Source: Nitrospirota bacterium
Lineage (GTDB): Bacteria > Nitrospirota > Thermodesulfovibrionia > Thermodesulfovibrionales > JdFR-86
Reading direction: 5' to 3'
Assembly: GCA_016207905.1 (NCBI GenBank)
Contig: JACQZC010000075.1
Location: 1 to 36,166, forward strand
Length of the DNA: 36,166 nt
Below, in pieces: positions 2,475 through 33,021 of this stretch. The translations under genes were made by a program, and so were the position numbers. The notes below the pieces were generated by a model. The model made no database searches. It worked only from the letters and a program-made list of their open reading frames with translations, and was not told the DNA's origin. Numbering within the stretch: position 1 is the stretch's first letter; each line of letters opens with the position of its first letter.

Positions 2475-2771
2475 ATGAAAAAGGTTTTTTCGCTTATGTC
2501 ATTCCGAGCTTGCCCCGGAATCTCAAATGTCTTATTCCTTGCCCTGCTTATCTCTGTGCTCTTTATTCCCCTTTCGCTTTATGCAGGCATTAATGATGAC
2601 CTGATAATAGCAGCAGCACGAGGTGATATTGCCAAAATTAAAGAACTCCTTGACAAAGGCGCTGATGTTAATGCAAAAACCAATGATGGCATGACTGCTT
2701 TGATGCTGGCGGCAGATAAAGGTCATACAGAGATTGTTCGCCTGCTTGAGAATGCAATGAAAAAGAGGTAG
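2475..2771 (+). CDS. Small secreted ankyrin-repeat protein
   Basis: A 98-residue protein with an N-terminal signal peptide (hydrophobic core about residues 18-34, likely cleavage after SLYA at 37) followed by about two ankyrin repeats (residues 39-95). The repeat motif is visible in ARGDIAKIKELLDKGADVNA and in TALMLAADKGHTEIVRLL. Ankyrin repeats mediate protein binding; the partner is unknown and the product should be periplasmic. AAGGAGGGG upstream supports the ATG. The n-region is unusually long because codons 9-17 (SFRACPGIS) are encoded by a dispersed palindromic repeat inserted in frame at 2498-2524. It is monocistronic, with its own promoter at 2408. Confidence 0.85.
   Translation: MKKVFSLMSFRACPGISNVLFLALLISVLFIPLSLYAGINDDLIIAAARGDIAKIKELLDKGADVNAKTNDGMTALMLAADKGHTEIVRLLENAMKKR
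2498..2524 (+). repeat. Dispersed palindrome inside the signal-peptide coding region
   Basis: A 27-bp element starting GTCATTCCGAGCTTGCC and ending GGAATCTC, with ATTCCG/CGGAAT arms. It belongs to the same family as the elements at 2233-2251 and 35651-35677. Its length is a multiple of three, so the host frame stays open. Confidence 0.75.
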
Positions 2772-2892: not shown

Positions 2893-2922
2893 TTGACAGA
2901 ACCCTTATCTGCCTGCTATAAA
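2893..2922 (+). promoter_or_regulatory. Promoter of ilvE, predicted leaderless
   Basis: TTGACA (2893-2898), an 18-nt spacer and TATAAA (2917-2922), with only 8 nt to the ATG at 2931. No Shine-Dalgarno sequence fits between them. The remaining bases 2772-2892 show no gene or clear structure. Confidence 0.6.
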
Positions 2923-2930
2923 TATAGCTC

Positions 2931-3845
2931 ATGATTAAAAAGACAGAAAAGATATGGATGGACGGAAAACTCATCCCATGGGATGATGCAAAGGTTCATA
3001 TCCTCACGCACACCCTTCATTACGGGCTTGGGGTTTTTGAGGGCATAAGGTGCTACGAGACATCGAGAGGTCCTGCGGTCTTCAGATTGGATGAGCATAT
3101 CAGGAGACTCATTAAATCAGCACATATATTCCTTTTGGATGTCCCTTATTCGGAGGAAGAGATAAAAGAGGCGGTAGTAAAAACCATCAGGGCAAATAAG
3201 CTCAAGGAATGCTATATAAGGCCACTTGTATATATAGGTTATGGTGCAATGGGGCTTTACCCTAAAGGAAACCCGATTAATCTCTCCATATCAGTCTGGC
3301 CATGGGGCACATATCTTGGAGAGGAGGGCATCAAAAGAGGCATAAGGGTCAAGACCTCGTCTTTTATAAAAAGCCATGTTAATGCGAATATGTCGAGGGC
3401 AAAGGTCTGCGGATATTATGTGAGTAGTCAGCTTGCCAAAAACGAGGCAGTCTCAATGGGCTTTGACGAGGCACTGCTTTTAGATGCAGATGGGTATGTC
3501 TCGGAAGGTCCAGGAGAAAACATCTTTATATTAAGACAAAACTGCCTTAAAACCACCCCTCTTACCACTATACTTGAAGGCATCACAAGGGAATCAATCA
3601 TGACAATTGCAAAGGATGAGGGTCTTACTGTCAGGGAGGAAAGGTTTACGAGGGATGAGGTATACATCTCGGATGAGGCATTCTTTACAGGCACAGCCGC
3701 GGAGCTTACTCCGATAAGGGAATTAGATGGAAGGCAGATAGGCACTGGGATGCCAGGTAAGGTCACAAAAAGACTCCAGAAGATATTCTTTGATACAGTA
3801 AAAGGCAAGAACAGGAAATACAAACACTGGCTTACCTATGTTTAA
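2931..3845 (+). CDS. ilvE: Branched-chain amino acid aminotransferase
   Basis: A 304-residue fold-type IV PLP aminotransferase that interconverts Leu/Ile/Val and their 2-oxo acids with 2-oxoglutarate/glutamate; cytoplasmic. Visible motifs are [33 protein letters not shown], the PLP lysine region [10 protein letters not shown] (K158 as the likely Schiff-base lysine), and [15 protein letters not shown]. The length matches bacterial IlvE. The ATG is favoured because the preceding -10 box ends 8 nt upstream, which predicts a leaderless message, and because family members begin the same way. It is not in an obvious operon. D-amino-acid transaminase or ADC lyase, from the same fold, are less likely given the N-terminal motifs. 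Confidence 0.95.
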
Positions 3846-3859
3846 GGAAACATTTTGAT

Positions 3860-3888
3860 TTGACTATCTCCTCCTAAAGCATCATAAT
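3860..3888 (+). promoter_or_regulatory. Promoter of the binding protein-kinase pair, predicted leaderless
   Basis: TTGACT (3860-3865), a 17-nt spacer and CATAAT (3883-3888), then 7 nt to the ATG at 3896. No ribosome site precedes the ATG. Confidence 0.55.
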
Positions 3889-3895
3889 CTGTTTA

Positions 3896-4726
3896 ATGAG
3901 TCGGTTGCCTTTTATAATTATTTGGCTCTTTAGCCTTTTCAGTATCCCTCTTTTTGCCGAGGATGCTGATATAGTGGCTTTTGGCGACCACTCGCTCTGG
4001 GTTTTAGCAAACGATATTAAAAACACCTTTAAGAAGGACACAGGGATTTCCCTTTACCTCATACCCGAATTTGCCATTGAAGGGAAGGGCTGTGCAAAAG
4101 GTATTCTGCATGCGTCAGGAGGAAGCCCTGACAGAGACATAGGGCTTGTCTGCTGCAAGCTAAATCCAGACATAGTGAAAAAATATGGCATTAAGGTCTA
4201 TCCTGTAGTTAGAGAGCCTCTGGCAATAATAGTCAATAAAGCAAATCCAGTCTCAGGGCTTACCTTAAAACAGGTCAAGGATATTTTTTCGGGCAGGATA
4301 ACGAGATGGTCAAAAGTGGGTGGACCCAATGAGCCTATTGTAGTTATAACAAGGCTTCACTGCACCGAGCATATCCCTAACTGGACAAAGATACTCGGAA
4401 GTCCCCTTGAGTTCACGAAGAGGAGCCTGAATGTTAGCTCAGAGCCTGATATGGCAAAAACAGTTTCGGATTTCAAACAGGCAATAGGACATCTTGAGAT
4501 GACAAGCATCGCTGAGTGGGGAAAAGGCGTAAAGATACTTTCCATCGATGGCTATATGCCTACAAGTAAAGACTTAATAGAAGGGCATTATCCATTCTGG
4601 GCAACGCTTTCTATCGTTACAAAAGGCGAGGCAAAAGGAAAGGCGAAAAGGTTTATAGATTACATCAGGACAAGCACTAATATCAGGGAAATCCTACTTA
4701 AATACGGTATGCATCAAACCCCATAA
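3896..4726 (+). CDS. PstS-like periplasmic substrate-binding protein
   Basis: A 276-residue protein with a signal peptide (hydrophobic residues about 5-20, likely cut after LFA21) and a PBP-like domain of the phosphate-binding type. PstS-family features include the early VAFGDHSLWVLAND, the middle segment REPLAIIVNKANPVSGLTL, then KDIFSGRITRW and a C-terminal TKGEAKGKAKRFIDYI. The usual GSG/GSS phosphate-loop start is not obvious, so phosphate is not assured as ligand; CC occurs at LVCCKL. No lipobox was seen. No pstCAB permease or ATPase genes are nearby. The next gene, a sensor kinase, starts 5 bp after this stop, suggesting that the protein presents a ligand to the kinase. The start lacks a ribosome site and fits the promoter at 3860. 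Confidence 0.8.
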   Translation: MSRLPFIIIWLFSLFSIPLFAEDADIVAFGDHSLWVLANDIKNTFKKDTGISLYLIPEFAIEGKGCAKGILHASGGSPDRDIGLVCCKLNPDIVKKYGIKVYPVVREPLAIIVNKANPVSGLTLKQVKDIFSGRITRWSKVGGPNEPIVVITRLHCTEHIPNWTKILGSPLEFTKRSLNVSSEPDMAKTVSDFKQAIGHLEMTSIAEWGKGVKILSIDGYMPTSKDLIEGHYPFWATLSIVTKGEAKGKAKRFIDYIRTSTNIREILLKYGMHQTP

Positions 4727-21277: not shown

Positions 21278-22255
21278 CTATGTGTTCTCCCACACCCCCG
21301 GTATGGAGACGTTACAGAACTTGCACCTGCCTTTAACGATATTGTTTTGTGCCACAAAGTATCCATGCCGCTCTATAAGAAGTCTTTTACAGTTATGGCA
21401 GGATGTGTTCTCTGAAGTGCTCCTTATGTTTCCGATATACACATATCTGAGCCCTACATCCATCGCTGTTTTTCTTGCATTATCGAGGGTCTCGGGTGGG
21501 GTAGGTGGAAGGTCCTTCAGTTTATAGTAGGGGAAAAACCGTGAGAAATGCACTGGAGTATCGGGTCCGACATTTTTAAGAATCCACCTGCTCATCTCCT
21601 TTATCTCATCCATGCTGTCATTAAGGCTTGGTATAATGAGGTTTGTAAGCTCAAGCCATACGCCTTCATCTTTAAGCGTAACTATCGAATCCAAAACAGG
21701 CTTAAGCCTTCCTCCGCATATCCTGCCATAGAAGTCCTCGGTAAATGCCTTAAGGTCCACATCAGAGGCATCGAGATGCCTTGCAAGCTCTCTCAAGGGC
21801 TTTTCCTTTATGTACCCGCATGTATGGATTGTGTTTTTTATACCGTATTTTTTTGCTATCACTGCAATGTCAAGCATATATTCGTAAAACACGGTTGGCT
21901 CCGTATATGTATAGCAGATGCTCTTTGATTTATAGGAAATCGCCTGTCTTACAACCTCCTCTGGCGGGATCTCGTAGAAGTCCGCCTCCTCGGGCTTTGC
22001 CTGAGATATCTGCCAGTTCTGACAGAACTTGCATCCAAGCACACAGCCCACAGTGGCAATGGAGAAAGCAGTTGTTGCAGGCAGAAAATGATAGAAGGGC
22101 TTTTTCTCTATTGGGTCTACATGAACAGCACAGGGCTTTCCGTAAACAAGGCTATAAAGCACACCGCCTTTATTAATCCTTACCCTGCATCCGCCAACCT
22201 CGTATTCGGCAAGAACGCACTCAGTAGGGCATAGCTCGCACCGAACCTTTGCCAT
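21278..22255 (-). CDS. amrS: AmmeMemoRadiSam system radical SAM enzyme (PflA-like)
   Basis: A 325-residue radical SAM protein. The cluster motif is GCVLGCKFCQNW (C71, C75, C78). N-terminal cysteines RCELCPTEC and GGCRVR, and a C-terminal Cys cluster SCHNCK...GRCKFC, are typical of AmrS. The TYTEPTVFYEYM, TCGYI and DVDLKAF motifs match COG1180. The MEMO and AMMECR1 partner genes are not in the window, and the reaction is not established here. The ATG is preceded by TATAAT with 5 nt between and no ribosome site. The gene is divergent from the HEAT-repeat gene and may head the minus-strand operon down to comEC. Confidence 0.9.
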   Translation of the reverse strand: MAKVRCELCPTECVLAEYEVGGCRVRINKGGVLYSLVYGKPCAVHVDPIEKKPFYHFLPATTAFSIATVGCVLGCKFCQNWQISQAKPEEADFYEIPPEEVVRQAISYKSKSICYTYTEPTVFYEYMLDIAVIAKKYGIKNTIHTCGYIKEKPLRELARHLDASDVDLKAFTEDFYGRICGGRLKPVLDSIVTLKDEGVWLELTNLIIPSLNDSMDEIKEMSRWILKNVGPDTPVHFSRFFPYYKLKDLPPTPPETLDNARKTAMDVGLRYVYIGNIRSTSENTSCHNCKRLLIERHGYFVAQNNIVKGRCKFCNVSIPGVWENT

Positions 22256-22260
22256 AAATT

Positions 22261-22314
22261 ATTATAACTGGTTCGGCTATGTTATTGACATATGACTACA
22301 AATAATGATAAAAA
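22261..22314. promoter_or_regulatory. Divergent promoters for amrS (-) and the HEAT-repeat gene (+), both predicted leaderless
   Basis: Only 65 bp separate the two start codons. Minus strand: TATAAT at 22266-22261, 5 nt before the amrS ATG, with a weak TGTCAA -35 at 22290-22285. Plus strand: TTGACA at 22285-22290, an 18-nt spacer and TAAAAA at 22309-22314, 6 nt before the ATG at 22321. The two -35 boxes occupy the same bases. Confidence 0.5.
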
Positions 22315-22320
22315 AGTAAT

Positions 22321-23964
22321 ATGCCCGAGGATATAACTGAAGGCGTAAGCAGTAAGGACCTTGACCTTGTCAAGGATGTTTTGATAACCATTACCAAGAC
22401 TGTCAAGACCTTTAATGTGTATCCAAAGGACAACCCCATATACCAGAGATTTGCAACTGCACTTTCCGAAAAATTCAATACCTACTTTGAAACCCATGAT
22501 GACCTTATCCTCGATATAGATCGCAACTCCTTGCTTTACGAGGAAAATGAGGTTTTCCATAGCGAGGAGTTAACCGATAACATTGCCCTTTTACTTTATG
22601 CAGACGGTATAAGGCAGATAAGTTTTCATAAGGGTATGACATTTGACGAGATAGTGGATTTCATCGATGTCTTAAGGCTTGCACCGAGGGAAAGCCTTCA
22701 TGACGATATAACGACACTCCTCTGGGATAAGAATATCAAACACCTTGAATATATCGTTGCCGAAGAGACTGTGGATGAGGAGCTTGCAGGAGAAGAGGCT
22801 GTCTCCGAAGATGTGGAAGAGGTCACCACTATTTATGGAGCCTCTTATTCGGAGCTAACAATAAAGCCCGTTTTCCTTGAACTGAAGACAGAGCCACTCA
22901 CCGATGAGGAGCTATCATCCATAAAAACAGAGGTGATTGGATTATCAGAGAAATCGCTTCTTTCCTCTGCAACAAATCTCTTCCTTGCAATGCTGACAGT
23001 CGAAAAGGACATGGAAGAGTTTTCAAGACTAACGGAGGGCATTGGAAAGGTAATGGATATGCGGTTGAAAGACAATGACCTTAAAGGTGTGCTCGAGATA
23101 CTCCAGAAGCTAAAGAAGGTGGCAGGTGTTTCATCCATGCCCGAACAAAAAGAGATAATCGACAATATTATTTCAAAGGCAGGTAATATCGAAAACCTGA
23201 GAAGGCTTTTTGGGGAGTCTTTACCTGCAGAGGACATCACCAGTTATCTCATGCTTCTCAAGAAAAGCTCTTTGCCCAATATGATTGAGATTCTGGGAGA
23301 GCTTCAGGATAGAAAACATAGAAAGCTTCTCTGTAGCATCCTCATCGAGCTTGGCAAACAGGACATCGGTGCTTTCTCGGCAGGTATTACCGATAAACGG
23401 TGGTATCTCGTAAGAAACATAGTGATGATTCTTGGCATGATAAAAGAGCCTGCCGCACTTAAGCTTATAGAGAAGGCATTGAAGCACCCAGAGCCAAGGG
23501 TAAGGAGGGAGGCATTAAGGGCACTTGAATGTATTGGCTCCGAGGAGATTAAGAAGCTTCTTTTTTTGGCACTAAAGGATGAGGACTCTGCCGTAAGAAC
23601 TGGTGCACTCAGAGCAATGAGAAGAATCGGTGGTGCAGACCTTTTCCATCTGCTGAAAGGAAGTGTATCGAGGGAGGAGCTTAAGAAAAAATCATTTACG
23701 GAAAAGAAGGAACTGCTTGAAGCCTTAGCCTCTTTAGGAGGACAAGAGGCATTCCCGCTTCTTTTGGAGCTATTTAAAAAGAAAGGGCTGATAGAAAAAG
23801 ACGACACTACAGAGATAAGGGCATGTGCGGCATATGCCCTTGGCATTATTAGAAGCCCAGAGGCTATCTCCCTTCTTCAGAAAGAAACCAGTGCAAAGAA
23901 AAGCCTTTTAAGAGATGCCTGTCTTAGGGCTATTAAGGAGGCAAAAATAGGTGGAGCCACTTAG
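22321..23964 (+). CDS. HEAT-repeat protein paired with an HD-GYP protein
   Basis: A 547-residue soluble protein. Residues about 15-145 form an alpha/beta module with TFNVYPKDNP, a central NSLLYEENEVFH and GIRQISFHKGMTFDEI. An acidic linker follows (about 148-170), then a helical middle region (190-350). PBS-lyase-type HEAT repeats cover about 355-540, for example PEPRVRREALRALECIG and EDSAVRTGALRAMRRIG. There are no membrane segments and no catalytic motif. HEAT repeats suggest a scaffold for protein partners. The stop overlaps the GTG start of the HD-GYP gene by 14 bp, and the N-terminal modules of the two proteins look related. The function is unknown; a signalling scaffold is the best guess. 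Confidence 0.85.
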   Translation: MPEDITEGVSSKDLDLVKDVLITITKTVKTFNVYPKDNPIYQRFATALSEKFNTYFETHDDLILDIDRNSLLYEENEVFHSEELTDNIALLLYADGIRQISFHKGMTFDEIVDFIDVLRLAPRESLHDDITTLLWDKNIKHLEYIVAEETVDEELAGEEAVSEDVEEVTTIYGASYSELTIKPVFLELKTEPLTDEELSSIKTEVIGLSEKSLLSSATNLFLAMLTVEKDMEEFSRLTEGIGKVMDMRLKDNDLKGVLEILQKLKKVAGVSSMPEQKEIIDNIISKAGNIENLRRLFGESLPAEDITSYLMLLKKSSLPNMIEILGELQDRKHRKLLCSILIELGKQDIGAFSAGITDKRWYLVRNIVMILGMIKEPAALKLIEKALKHPEPRVRREALRALECIGSEEIKKLLFLALKDEDSAVRTGALRAMRRIGGADLFHLLKGSVSREELKKKSFTEKKELLEALASLGGQEAFPLLLELFKKKGLIEKDDTTEIRACAAYALGIIRSPEAISLLQKETSAKKSLLRDACLRAIKEAKIGGAT

Positions 23965-26193: not shown

Positions 26194-28632
26194 TTAATTA
26201 ACTCCTGTTAATATAGGTTTTTCGGTCTCCACAAATGTCGGAGCACCGTTTTCAAGGACAACCCTTATCTTATTTACACCCTTAAATCTTCCTCTCAACA
26301 ATTCCTCTGATAAGGGGTCTTCGATAATCTTCTGAACTGCCCTTCTCATAGGCCTTGCACCATATGCAGGCTGGCAGTATTTGTCTGTTATCCATTCCTT
26401 GACCTCTGTGTCAAGCTCGATAACGAGTTCCTGCTCGAGCAAGAGCTTATTCGTCTCCGAAATCAGAAGGTCTATAATAGAGTGCAGGTGGTTTTTGCTT
26501 AATGGGTGGAATACTACTGTCTCGTCCACCCTGTTTAAGAACTCAGGATTGAAGGTCTTTTTAAGCTCGTTAAGGACACTGTCTTTAATCTGCAGGTAAA
26601 TGTCCTCGGAAGATGTCCTCTGGAAACCAAGTGGAGTTGCCTTTTCGATAATCCTCGCACCTAAATTGGAGGTCATGATTATAACGCAGTTTTTGAAATC
26701 GACCCTTCTTCCAAAGCTATCTGTAAGAACACCTTCGTCAAGAACCTGAAGGAGTATATTGAAGACATCCGGATGAGCCTTTTCTATCTCGTCAAAGAGC
26801 ACGACCGAGTATGGACGTTTTCTGATTTTCTCTGTAAGCTGTCCTCCTTCTTCATAGCCAACATAGCCCGGAGGTGCGCCTGTTAGCCTTGAGACATTGA
26901 ACCTTTCCACATACTCGGACATGTCTATTTTTATAAGTGCGCTGTCGTCGTTAAAAAGGAACTCCGCAAGTGCCTTTGCAAGCTCGGTCTTTCCAACACC
27001 TGTTGGGCCAAGGAAGAAGAACGAGCCAATCGGCTTTTTCCTACTCGTAAGACCTGCCCTTGACCTTCTTATTGCCTTTGAGACTGCCTTTACAGCCTCT
27101 TCCTGTGCAATAAGTCTTTTGTGAAGCTCTTGCTCCATATTGAGAAGCTTATCAGAGTCTTTTTCTTCGAGCTTAAAAAGAGGAATGCCTGTTATCTTTG
27201 AAACCGTATACGAAATATCATCTTCGGTTACGATAGGGATTTCTTTGTTCAGATTATTTTTCCACTGTCTGCGGACCTGCTCATAAAGTCTTTTTGTCTT
27301 TTCCTCTTCGCCTCTGACATTAGCGGCTTTTTCGATGTCATGCAGTTTAACATAAAGGTTCTTCTCTTTCGAAAGTCTGCTTAGCTCGTCTTCCATCTCC
27401 TTCATTTCGGGTGATGGAATATGCCTTTTGAGCTTTATCCTTGAGCCTGTCTCGTCAATGACATCGACTGCCTTGTCAGGAAGGTATCTATCTGCGATGT
27501 ATCTGTCAGACAGTATTACTGCATGGGATATGGCACTTTCGGTGTATTTTACCTTATGGTGTATCTCATATCTGGACTTCAAGCCTCTGAGCATTTTGAC
27601 AGCCTCATCAACAGGAGGAGGCTGAAGATATATCGGCTGAAACCTTCTTTCTAATGCGGCATCCCTTTCGACATATTTTCTATACTCATTAGGGGTGGTT
27701 GCACCTATGCACTGTATCTCGCCTCGGGAAAGTGCAGGCTTGAGCATACTGGATGCATCCACAGAGCCTTCTGCCGCACCTGCTCCAATAAGGGTATGAA
27801 ATTCGTCTATAAAAAGTATTATATTGTCATACTGGATAATCTCCTTCATTACGACCTTAAGCCTTTCTTCGAACTGTCCCCTGTATTTTGTTCCTGCTAT
27901 CAGGGAGCCAAGGTCAAGGGAGACAATGCGTTTGCCCAGCAGGTTTTCAGGCACATCGCCTTCAACTATCTTCTGCGCAAGTCCCTCTACGAGTGCGGTT
28001 TTCCCAACCCCTGCTTCTCCTACTATTGCAGGGTTGTTCTTAATCCTTCTGCCTAAAATCTGCATTATGCGCTCTATCTGGCTTTCCATACCTATAACAG
28101 GGTCGAGCTTTCCTTCTTTTGCCAGTTGTGTGATGTCTCTTCCAAATTCGTCAAGCGCAGGTGTAGGGGACTTTTTCTCTTTGACATGAGGATATGCCTT
28201 AAGAACAAGATTAATCGTAAGCTGTCTTGCTCCAAGGAGATTAGCCCCAAAACTCCTCAAGATTTTCCCTGCAATACCTTCGTCTTCTCTGAGGAGACCG
28301 AGCAGAAGATGCTCACTTCCGATATAGTTGTGTCCAAGAAGCCGTGCCTCCTCTATGGCAAGCTCGAGAACCTTTTTAGCCCTTGGCGTGAATGGAACAT
28401 CTCCGAATGTAAGAATGTTACTGCCTGCAGGAAGGTTTCTTTCTATCTCCATGCGAAGCTCATCCGAGGATATGCCCATTTTTCTGAGAATTGCTATTGG
28501 CAGTGTGTCTTCTTCCCTTAGGATGGCAAGCAGGAGGTGCTCTGTGCCAAGATAATCATTCTGCCTTTTTTCAGCCTCTTCCTTGGCATATATGATTATC
28601 TTTCTTCCCTTTTCCGTAAACTTCTCAAACAT
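26194..28632 (-). CDS. clpC: ClpC-type AAA+ ATPase subunit of Clp protease
   Basis: An 812-residue class I Hsp100 unfoldase that feeds substrates to ClpP. Two N-terminal Clp repeats (about 1-145) are followed by AAA-1 with Walker A GEAGVGKT (205-212). A UVR-type coiled segment lies at about 415-455 ([20 protein letters not shown]). AAA-2 has Walker A GPTGVGKT, Walker [14 protein letters not shown], and a PLGF loop suited to docking on ClpP. The UVR middle region distinguishes ClpC from ClpA and ClpB. Length and start (after an AGGAT ribosome site) are standard. It leads an operon with the thioredoxin and DUF4416 genes. Confidence 0.96.
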
Positions 28633-30206: not shown

Positions 30207-30235
30207 TTGAAAGAAACCGACTTATTAACTATACT
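30207..30235 (+). promoter_or_regulatory. Promoter of the PilB/GspE-like gene, predicted leaderless
   Basis: TTGAAA (30207-30212), a 17-nt spacer and TATACT (30230-30235), then 5 nt to the ATG at 30241. No ribosome site is present. Confidence 0.6.
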
Positions 30236-30240
30236 ACTAT

Positions 30241-32520
30241 ATGGCTGTTCCAGAGAAAACACCAACCAATATTCAAACACTACAGGCACAGATTCAGTTC
30301 AGCGAGAAGCTTAAATTTGTCTCAAACAAAATCCATTCTGCCAACAATATCAACGAGATATTGATTCAGCTTAAGGATGCAATCCTGAGCCTCTTCGATG
30401 CCGAAAGGATTACTATCTATCTCGTTGACCCTGTAAATAAGGAGCTCGTATCGAAATACCTTGTTGGCACAGGCATAAGAGAGATAAGGGTGCCTATCTC
30501 CAATTCAAGCATTGCCGGCTACACAGCATATAGTGCAAAGGTGTTGAACATTGCCGATGTATATGACACTATGCAGTTGAAAAAAATAGACCCGAATCTG
30601 AATTTCGACAAACACTGGGACCAGAAATCGGGATTCACCTCAAAACAGATGCTTTCAGCTCCGATAATATTCGAGAATAAGATTCTTGGGGTCATTCAGC
30701 TGATAAATAAGAAACACGGACCTGCCTTTACGAGATTAGACCAGACAAGCATTCTTGAGATAGCACGAGTGCTGGGCATTGCATTCAGAAACCAGGCAAA
30801 GATGATACGCACACGATTTGACTACCTCATAAGCCTAAATGTTATTACCGAAGCCGAATTAAGAACAGCTTTGACCATTGCGAGGGAGCAGAAAAAAGAT
30901 GTCGAGACGGTCATTATGGAAAATTATAAGGTGAAAAAATCTGATATAGGCGCATCCTTGAGCCAGTTCTATGGCTGTCGCTTCATCGAATACGACCCGA
31001 AAATAATCATTCAGAAAGACCTGCTGAAGGGTCTTAACATGGCATACCTGAAAAACTCATTCTGGGTTCCTGTGTCTTTGTCAAATGGAAAAGCCACTAT
31101 CCTGATAGATAATCCGAGGGACCCAAAAATCATGGAAATAAAAAGCCTGATTAAGGCAAAGGAGTATGAATTTCAGGTGGCTTTAAAAGAGGATATATTA
31201 AAATTCCTCCATGTCCTCGAAACGGATACAAAGGAAGGTGGTTCCATTACCGATATACTTTCCGAGATGGATGTCAAGGATGAAAAAAGCGAGGTGGAGA
31301 CAGAATCGGTAGTCGACGAAAATGCAGGCACTATAGTTCGTCTCGTCAACCAGATATTTATCGAGGGCTATGAAAAGGGTGTCTCTGACATCCATATAGA
31401 GCCGAGCAAGGCAAAAAAGACAACATATATCCGCTTCAGGGTTGACGGCATATGCCACAAACATCTCGAGGTTCCATTTAGCTATAGTAGCGCCCTTACA
31501 TCGAGAGTCAAGATTATGGCTAATTTAGACATCTCCGAAAGAAGACTTCCTCAGGACGGAAAGATTAAATTCATCTATAAGGACACACCAATAGAGCTTC
31601 GTGTGGCAACACTGCCAACGGTTGGAGGCGAGGATGTCGTAATAAGAATCCTTGCCTCTTCTAAACCAATGACACTGGAGGCACTGAACCTTTCTGACAA
31701 CGATTACAAGCGTTTCAAGGAGATACTCTCCTATCCATATGGAATCGTTCTTGTCGTAGGACCCACGGGCTCTGGAAAAACCACGACCCTTCATTCTGCA
31801 TTGGGTTATATAAACACCCCTGAGAGAAAGATATGGACTGCTGAGGACCCTGTCGAAATAACACAGGAGGGCTTAAGACAGCTTGAGGTTAAACCCAAGA
31901 TAGACCTGAATTTCGCAAGGGCAATGCGTGCATTTCTAAGGGCAGACCCGGATGTCATCATGGTTGGCGAGATGAGAGACCATGAGACAGCCTCGATAGG
32001 CGTCGAGGCATCCCTTACAGGTCATCTTGTCTTCAGCACCCTTCATACAAACAGTGCGCCCGAGACCATTGTCAGGCTCATCGATATGGGAATAGACCCT
32101 TTTAATTTTGCAGATGCCCTTCTTGGAATTCTGGCACAGCGACTGGCAAGAACATTATGCAAGAAATGTAAAGAACCCTATCATCCATCTGCCGATGAGT
32201 TTGAGACCCTCGGCAATGCCTATGGAAAAGAATTCTTTTCCGAATTGGGTATAGCATATGACAATACCCTTACTCTTTACAGAGCAAAGGGCTGTGATGA
32301 ATGCAATCATACGGGCTATAAAGGCAGGATTGGGCTATTTGAGCTTCTCGTTGCAACCAAGGCAATGAAATCCCTTATGCAGAAAAAATCCACTGCAGAG
32401 GAAATCAGAGCCCTTGCTATTAAAGACGGAATGAGAACCCTATTTCATGATGGCATAGCAAAAATCTTCAAAGGATACACTGACTTCAAACAGGTAAGAA
32501 GCGTGTGCATGAGCCAGTAA
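30241..32520 (+). CDS. GAF domain-fused PilB/GspE family secretion ATPase
   Basis: A 759-residue protein. A GAF sensor (about 25-185) is recognisable from LFDAERITIYLVD, the SIAGYTAYSAKVLNI turn and ILGVIQLINK. A GspE/MshE N-terminal-like module (about 195-320) follows. The secretion ATPase (about 355-750) has SDIHIEP, Walker A GPTGSGKT (507-514), the Asp box AEDPVE, Walker B region ADPDVIMVGEMRD (568-580), HLVFSTLHTN (595-604), and a zinc site C640/C643 with C685/C688. It would power type IV pilus or type II secretion pseudopilus assembly. The GAF fusion suggests gating by a small ligand such as a cyclic nucleotide. No pilus partner genes are adjacent. Walker B has M where most have I (GEIRD). 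Confidence 0.92.
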   Translation: MAVPEKTPTNIQTLQAQIQFSEKLKFVSNKIHSANNINEILIQLKDAILSLFDAERITIYLVDPVNKELVSKYLVGTGIREIRVPISNSSIAGYTAYSAKVLNIADVYDTMQLKKIDPNLNFDKHWDQKSGFTSKQMLSAPIIFENKILGVIQLINKKHGPAFTRLDQTSILEIARVLGIAFRNQAKMIRTRFDYLISLNVITEAELRTALTIAREQKKDVETVIMENYKVKKSDIGASLSQFYGCRFIEYDPKIIIQKDLLKGLNMAYLKNSFWVPVSLSNGKATILIDNPRDPKIMEIKSLIKAKEYEFQVALKEDILKFLHVLETDTKEGGSITDILSEMDVKDEKSEVETESVVDENAGTIVRLVNQIFIEGYEKGVSDIHIEPSKAKKTTYIRFRVDGICHKHLEVPFSYSSALTSRVKIMANLDISERRLPQDGKIKFIYKDTPIELRVATLPTVGGEDVVIRILASSKPMTLEALNLSDNDYKRFKEILSYPYGIVLVVGPTGSGKTTTLHSALGYINTPERKIWTAEDPVEITQEGLRQLEVKPKIDLNFARAMRAFLRADPDVIMVGEMRDHETASIGVEASLTGHLVFSTLHTNSAPETIVRLIDMGIDPFNFADALLGILAQRLARTLCKKCKEPYHPSADEFETLGNAYGKEFFSELGIAYDNTLTLYRAKGCDECNHTGYKGRIGLFELLVATKAMKSLMQKKSTAEEIRALAIKDGMRTLFHDGIAKIFKGYTDFKQVRSVCMSQ

Positions 32521-32604: not shown

Positions 32605-33021
32605 ATGGATAGATTCGTAAAAAACTTTATAGCCATGAGCATAGTGTATTTTGTTATTGCCTCGCTCTTTGGCATATGGATGCTCTGGATGCCGTCTCTT
32701 GTCAATCTCAGGTTTGTGCACTCCCATCTTATGATGCTCGGTTGGGTCTCGATGATGATATACGGTGTTGGCTATCACATATTGCCGAGGTTTGCAGGAA
32801 AGCTCCTTAAAAGCAGGATGCTTGGCGAGGTGCATTTCTGGCTCTCGAACATCGGTCTTTCGGGAATGGTTGTATCTTATATCCTCATGCAGATGAATCC
32901 TTCTAAAACCCTCTATGGTACTCTTACAGGGACATTCGGAGTAATTCAGGGGTTTTCTATATTCATATTTTTTTATAACATAATGTTTACTGTGTTTGGA
33001 AAGGAGAAGGCTCAGGCTTAA
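32605..33021 (+). CDS. Short cytochrome oxidase subunit I-like membrane protein
   Basis: A 138-residue protein with four predicted membrane helices (about 8-29, 38-58, 72-94 and 103-127). The motif HSHLMMLGWVSMMIYGVGYHILPRF resembles heme-copper oxidase subunit I (CcoN/NorB type) but the protein is much too short to be a full subunit, which has about twelve helices. Candidate heme ligands are the histidines around residues 37-39 and 55, plus H76. AAGGAGGT at 32593-32600 places the start at the ATG at 32605; a GTG at 32599 overlaps that site. It stands alone and ends 3 bp from the convergent tsaD. The 84 bp before it hold no clear terminator. Confidence 0.75.
   Translation: MDRFVKNFIAMSIVYFVIASLFGIWMLWMPSLVNLRFVHSHLMMLGWVSMMIYGVGYHILPRFAGKLLKSRMLGEVHFWLSNIGLSGMVVSYILMQMNPSKTLYGTLTGTFGVIQGFSIFIFFYNIMFTVFGKEKAQA

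Follow-up and report, generated by a model that had tools for sequence, protein, structure and literature searches.

Do ilvE and its neighbor in this Nitrospirota genome begin their messages on the start codon itself, and does such an arrangement reach beyond a single locus? The stretch of DNA analyzed here (the window) is 36,166 nt long and is one contig of a draft genome of 2.03 Mb in 98 contigs. The two genes that raise the question, with the promoter elements ahead of them, are the following.

2893..2898, plus strand: -35 element of ilvE, TTGACA, read directly and kept in orthologues
2914-2915, plus strand: TG extension of the ilvE -10 element, present in 59 of 65 promoter-type orthologues
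2917..2922, plus strand: -10 element of ilvE, TATAAA, read directly, 8 nt to the ATG
2931..3845, plus strand: ilvE, branched-chain aminotransferase (TIGR01122; NCBIfam 1.8e-129)
3860..3865, plus strand: -35 element of the binding-protein gene, TTGACT, read directly
3883..3888, plus strand: -10 element of the binding-protein gene, CATAAT, read directly, 7 nt to the ATG
3896..4726, plus strand: periplasmic binding protein (PBP_like_2 / PstS-like; Pfam 9.9e-22; NCBIfam TIGR02136 under the cut-off)

The first-pass annotation had described the spacing as TTGACA-18 nt-TATAAA-8 nt-ATG (2931) for ilvE and as TTGACT-17 nt-CATAAT-7 nt-ATG (3896) for the binding-protein gene, neither having a Shine-Dalgarno (SD) sequence. 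Direct reading bears out both layouts, and at most three contiguous bases match AAGGAGGTGA ahead of either gene. An ilvE start upstream of 2931 is ruled out by an in-frame stop codon (TAG) at 2925-2927, and the ilvE protein sequence is nearest to those of the Thermodesulfovibrionales (Nitrospirota). RNA polymerase starts 6-10 nt past the -10 element and prefers a purine that follows a pyrimidine; at ilvE in this genome, the A of the ATG is the sole purine in that interval. The A of the ATG is therefore the natural start when the gap is 5-8 nt, so that the message would begin with AUG. From this arrangement we infer where transcription starts and that ribosomes initiate on a 5'-terminal AUG: ilvE would have an extended sigma-70-type promoter with its start at the A of the ATG or a few nucleotides from it, and a start point there would make the message leaderless or nearly so, with translation starting without an SD helix. 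In the view given in PMC10783764, leaderless messages are initiated by ribosomes that carry initiator tRNA, with IF2 favoring the process, and ribosomes of this kind would probably start these Nitrospirota messages too. In our reading ilvE and about three in ten genes at the head of a transcription unit are very probably leaderless and start on a 5'-terminal AUG, beside SD-led genes, the mode being inherited with the gene. The binding-protein gene is predicted from its sequence alone to be of the leaderless type; a close orthologue was sought across the family and none was found.

The ilvE arrangement is conserved well beyond this genome. A close promoter stands at ilvE in this genome and in the other five of the family, and the typing of 85 ilvE genes gave 71 of promoter type (65 clear, 6 weak), 12 of SD type, and 2 unclear. 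Among the promoter-type genes, 70 have sufficient sequence ahead of the ATG, and 60 of these match TTGACA/TATAAT at a minimum of 10 of 12 positions with a gap of 5-11 nt, against 0-1 of 70 at displaced gaps and 0.26% in shuffles. As the arrangement is kept across much of the phylum, we take it to be a real, inherited trait. On the ilvE protein tree two changes of mode suffice, compared with about 13 when the labels are shuffled. Three ilvE genes that form one SD clade (L075:2920-3010, L076:2920-3010, and L077:1960-2060) have TTGACA-18-TATTAT followed by a leader of about 30-35 nt with AAGGAG; it looks as if a leaderless gene had become SD-led here through the gain of a leader.

To place the locus in its genome, we sampled 976 kb of this genome and 1.2 Mb of G005, a member of another genus of the same family, calling genes with a codon-usage gene finder and always taking the 5'-most ATG, so that start choice was independent of promoters. 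A close -10 box was defined as a TATAAT-like hexamer (5/6 match, A at position 2) ending 5-9 nt before the ATG, and the null was obtained by permuting each alignment column among genes in 100 runs, which keeps local AT-richness. The 419 leading genes have 78 such boxes, compared with 28.6 +/- 4.7 expected (maximum 40 in 100 runs), and the leading genes of G005 have 77 against 30 +/- 5. Operon-internal genes show far less of an excess (23 vs. 15 +/- 4), and 400 kb of Escherichia coli MG1655 taken through the identical pipeline gave no close -10 peak (6 vs. 5.5). The tabulation of -10-to-start distances that the annotation had proposed yields a sharp genome-wide excess in both genera, with matching -35s and the commonest gaps at 5-7 nt, while E. 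coli has none; the outcome that the annotation had named as a refutation, no such excess, did not occur.

Unsupervised expectation maximization (EM) recovered the same element. Applied to the 222 non-SD leading genes, it returned TATAAT at a gap of 4-9 nt (peak 6) with a weight of 0.55, and in the G005 set TATAAT had a weight of 0.56 of 278 genes; no comparable motif emerged from operon-internal genes or from E. coli. The motif appears when non-SD genes are analyzed alone, while a run with two free motifs returned only the SD and a flat motif. The leaderless-type share of leading genes is about 29%, a value that rests on the EM weight (0.55 of 222 non-SD genes), the strict hexamer counts giving an excess of merely about 50 of the 419. 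SD sites are present in 41% of leading genes by EM weight and in 47% when four contiguous bases are required, close to the value of 45 listed for the class Thermodesulfovibrionia (PMC10783764); about 40-47% of leading genes thus use AGGAGG Shine-Dalgarno sites. A search of the draft genome for the 16S tail (anti-SD) pattern did not find it.

Start codons differ in this respect. Close -10 boxes number 69 against 27.6 expected at ATG, 12 against 7.9 at GTG, and 7 against 9.5 at TTG; in essence only ATG starts show the signal, with little at GTG and none at TTG. Mycobacterial leaderless transcripts, in contrast, also use GTG.

The most serious alternative is an ultra-short leader of 1-5 nt, from which ribosomes would start in a non-SD, 5'-end-dependent manner on an AUG that is not exactly terminal. 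The ilvE gap of 8 nt (7-9 nt in most relatives) is 1-3 nt longer than the genome peak, and a leader of 1-4 nt is therefore possible at this gene; several relatives have purines 3-5 nt before the ATG that are candidate start points, and in some with a gap of 9 nt transcription may start 3-4 nt before the ATG. Against this, transcription that begins on the A of the ATG requires just the gap at which the genome peaks, 5-7 nt, and 62 of 65 promoter-type ilvE orthologues have a pyrimidine at -1 of the ATG, consistent with a YR initiator there. We regard such a leader as possible, though the less likely reading.

A second explanation would place the true transcription starts upstream, the close -10 boxes being no more than AT-rich sequence that keeps structure low near start codons or binds S1. 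Predictions of leaderless genes are known to be misled by AT-rich sequence ahead of non-SD genes (PMC5397173), yet the permuted null, with AT-richness kept, gives 28.6 boxes and not the 78 seen. Given a close -10 box, TTGACA-like hexamers lie at a spacer of 17 in 20 cases and of 18 in 9, other spacers having about 3-4 each; this peak is an independent sign that the boxes are promoter parts. Since, in addition, internal non-SD genes lack such a motif and ilvE retains the full -35/-10 pair, we consider this explanation very improbable. Smaller still is the chance that translation really begins at a later codon and that an ATG at the transcription start is coincidence. There is a conserved internal ATG at ilvE codon 10, but codons 2-9 are conserved as protein, the SD-type orthologues have GGAGG directly before the equivalent first ATG, which confirms the ilvE start codon, and coincidence gives neither a peak at a fixed gap nor a restriction to ATG. 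Least credible of all is chance alone, by which consensus matches can be noticed anywhere: in the window by itself a consensus promoter scan does find matches at shuffle level (43 vs. 39.7; 47 vs. 38.5), for which reason the evidence is positional and comparative (genome peak, E. coli control, phylogenetic footprint), and the signal is position-specific, conserved, and absent from E. coli with the same pipeline.

Initiation on a 5'-terminal AUG, as we read these genes, also appears to be a property of the individual gene. Of the orthologue pairs whose starts agree, 51 have a leading gene in each genus; of these, 9 are leaderless in both, 4+3 are discordant, and 35 are leaderless in neither (P = 3.9e-5), and the -10 scores of orthologue pairs have a rank correlation of 0.77 between the two genera. 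The shared leaderless set comprises dnaE, holB, uvrA, secA, selB, pheT, an exopolyphosphatase, an AcsV-like protein, and an ArsR-type regulator. The two initiation modes split by gene, as first suggested from the window, are upheld both by this agreement between genera and by the two mode changes placed on the ilvE tree. It is conceivable, and we offer it tentatively, that the choice between leaderless and SD-led in Nitrospirota is a gene-specific trait under selection, a housekeeping core (ilvE, secA, uvrA, dnaE, holB, pheT, and selB) having been leaderless for a very long time, with switches rare and made through gain of a leader and an SD. If so, the mode would be a regulatory label, and the condition of the translation machinery would affect the two gene sets in different ways.

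Across 27 genomes of the order, the promoter-plus-ATG pattern occurs 747 times at 5-8 nt and 430 times at 25-28 nt, and across 91 other genomes of the phylum 994 and 626 times. These counts fit the presence of leaderless genes, but they include AT-rich genomes with many chance matches and are used as support only. The pattern is nearly absent, near or far, from the 400 kb E. coli sample, which sets no ratio. A small sample (400 kb) of G006, a relative with an SD-type ilvE and a GC content of 53%, gave no peak (11 vs. a background of 11.0). Genes neighboring ilvE, pooled from 80 Nitrospirota genomes, gave at most a weak signal, the gene calls being poor on mixed composition. A separate observation from genome G000 (contig C3, 114-342) is a run of four tandem, identical, perfect promoters (TTGACA-16-TATAAT) about 67 nt apart.

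Leaderless messages as such are well known in many phyla. Deinococcus-Thermus has a "-10 motif adjacent to the ORF" at about 30% of ORFs (PMC12340547), and resembles the present case in a -10 element a few nucleotides before the ATG, the lack of an SD, and SD-led genes in the same genome; there, however, the -10 alone is often enough (PMC12340547), whereas this genome shows a clear enrichment of the -35, and its ilvE promoter is complete and extended. Mycobacteria are alike in that a sizeable share of transcripts starts at the start codon, beside SD-led ones (PMC4633059, PMC3898074). Expression was measured in Deinococcus-Thermus (PMC12340547), and RNA ends and ribosome profiling are available for mycobacteria (PMC4633059, PMC3898074), while the Nitrospirota case is predicted from sequence and conservation. 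The text of the survey by Zheng et al. 2011 (PMC3160421) reports leaderless genes in Actinobacteria, Aquificae, delta-Proteobacteria, Acidobacteria, and others with the same signature, TANNNT just before the start; that text does not mention Nitrospirae, although 8 of its 20 "Other Bacteria" have leaderless genes and could include them. According to the figure cited in PMC9581028, leaderless transcription is predicted in 21.6% of bacterial species (a GeneMarkS-2 class), and this genome would fit that class, with one promoter-type and one RBS-type start model. Our literature search, which covered running text, met no statement that names Nitrospirota as a leaderless group, and hence we claim no priority.

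Of most specialist interest are two points: mode is conserved gene by gene, and the switches in ilvE can be placed on a tree. They provide a clean comparative case, in a phylum with few cultured members, of two modes in one genome inherited per gene, and make selection versus drift of initiation mode testable. In practical terms, a gene finder that expects an SD will put the start in the wrong place for about one in three leading genes of this genome. The leaderless set also supplies targets for mapping RNA ends in an isolate.

Within the window, the annotation had pointed to the same arrangement at three further start codons, 22255, 22321, and 30241.

21278..22255, minus strand: AmmeMemoRadiSam-type radical SAM enzyme, leaderless type (TIGR04337, 3.2e-109)
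22261..22266, minus strand: -10 element of the radical SAM gene, TATAAT, 5 nt to the ATG at 22255, with the same box in the G005 orthologue
22285..22290, plus strand: -35 element of the HEAT-repeat gene, TTGACA, read directly
22307..22312, plus strand: -10 element of the HEAT-repeat gene, GATAAA, 8 nt to the ATG, with a similar box in the G004 orthologue
22321..23964, plus strand: HEAT-repeat protein (Pfam), leaderless type
30207..30212, plus strand: -35 element of the pilB-like gene, TTGAAA, read directly
30230..30235, plus strand: -10 element of the pilB-like gene, TATACT, 5 nt to the ATG
30241..32520, plus strand: GAF-MshEN-T2SSE (PilB-like) ATPase (Pfam), leaderless type here only

A -10 box does lie 5-8 nt before each of these ATGs. 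The HEAT-repeat gene reads TTGACA-16-GATAAA with a gap of 8 nt to 22321, and the pilB-like gene TTGAAA-17-TATACT with a gap of 5 nt to 30241; the recurrence is incomplete at 22255 (minus strand), where a clear -35 was sought upstream and none is recognizable. The 65-nt gap between these divergent radical SAM and HEAT-repeat genes (22256-22320) holds two close promoters face to face, the HEAT-repeat TTGACA covering the spot where a -35 for the radical SAM gene would lie. The mode of the pilB-like gene differs in its G004 orthologue (78% identical), which has a leader with GAGGAG and is SD-led. The PilB/GspE-type ATPase at 30241-32520 carries an additional N-terminal GAF domain.

Three genes had been set against these as having normal leaders.

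2475..2771, plus strand: ankyrin protein, leadered contrast gene, with the Shine-Dalgarno AAAGGAGG
ATG at 1618, minus strand: fmdB-type zinc ribbon, contrast gene, with a GGAGG SD
ATG at 28632, minus strand: clpC, contrast gene, with TTGACA..TATTAT 17 nt upstream and a weak AAGGA

The description holds for the ankyrin and fmdB genes, both with a strong SD, and fails for clpC, whose leader is short (about 10 nt) and not an ordinary one, as its TTGACA..TATTAT lies only 17 nt upstream. Elsewhere in the window, a short protein encoded at 32605-33021 has a partial match to COX1 (cytochrome oxidase subunit I; 1.3e-8, just under the cut-off), and its gene has a very strong SD.
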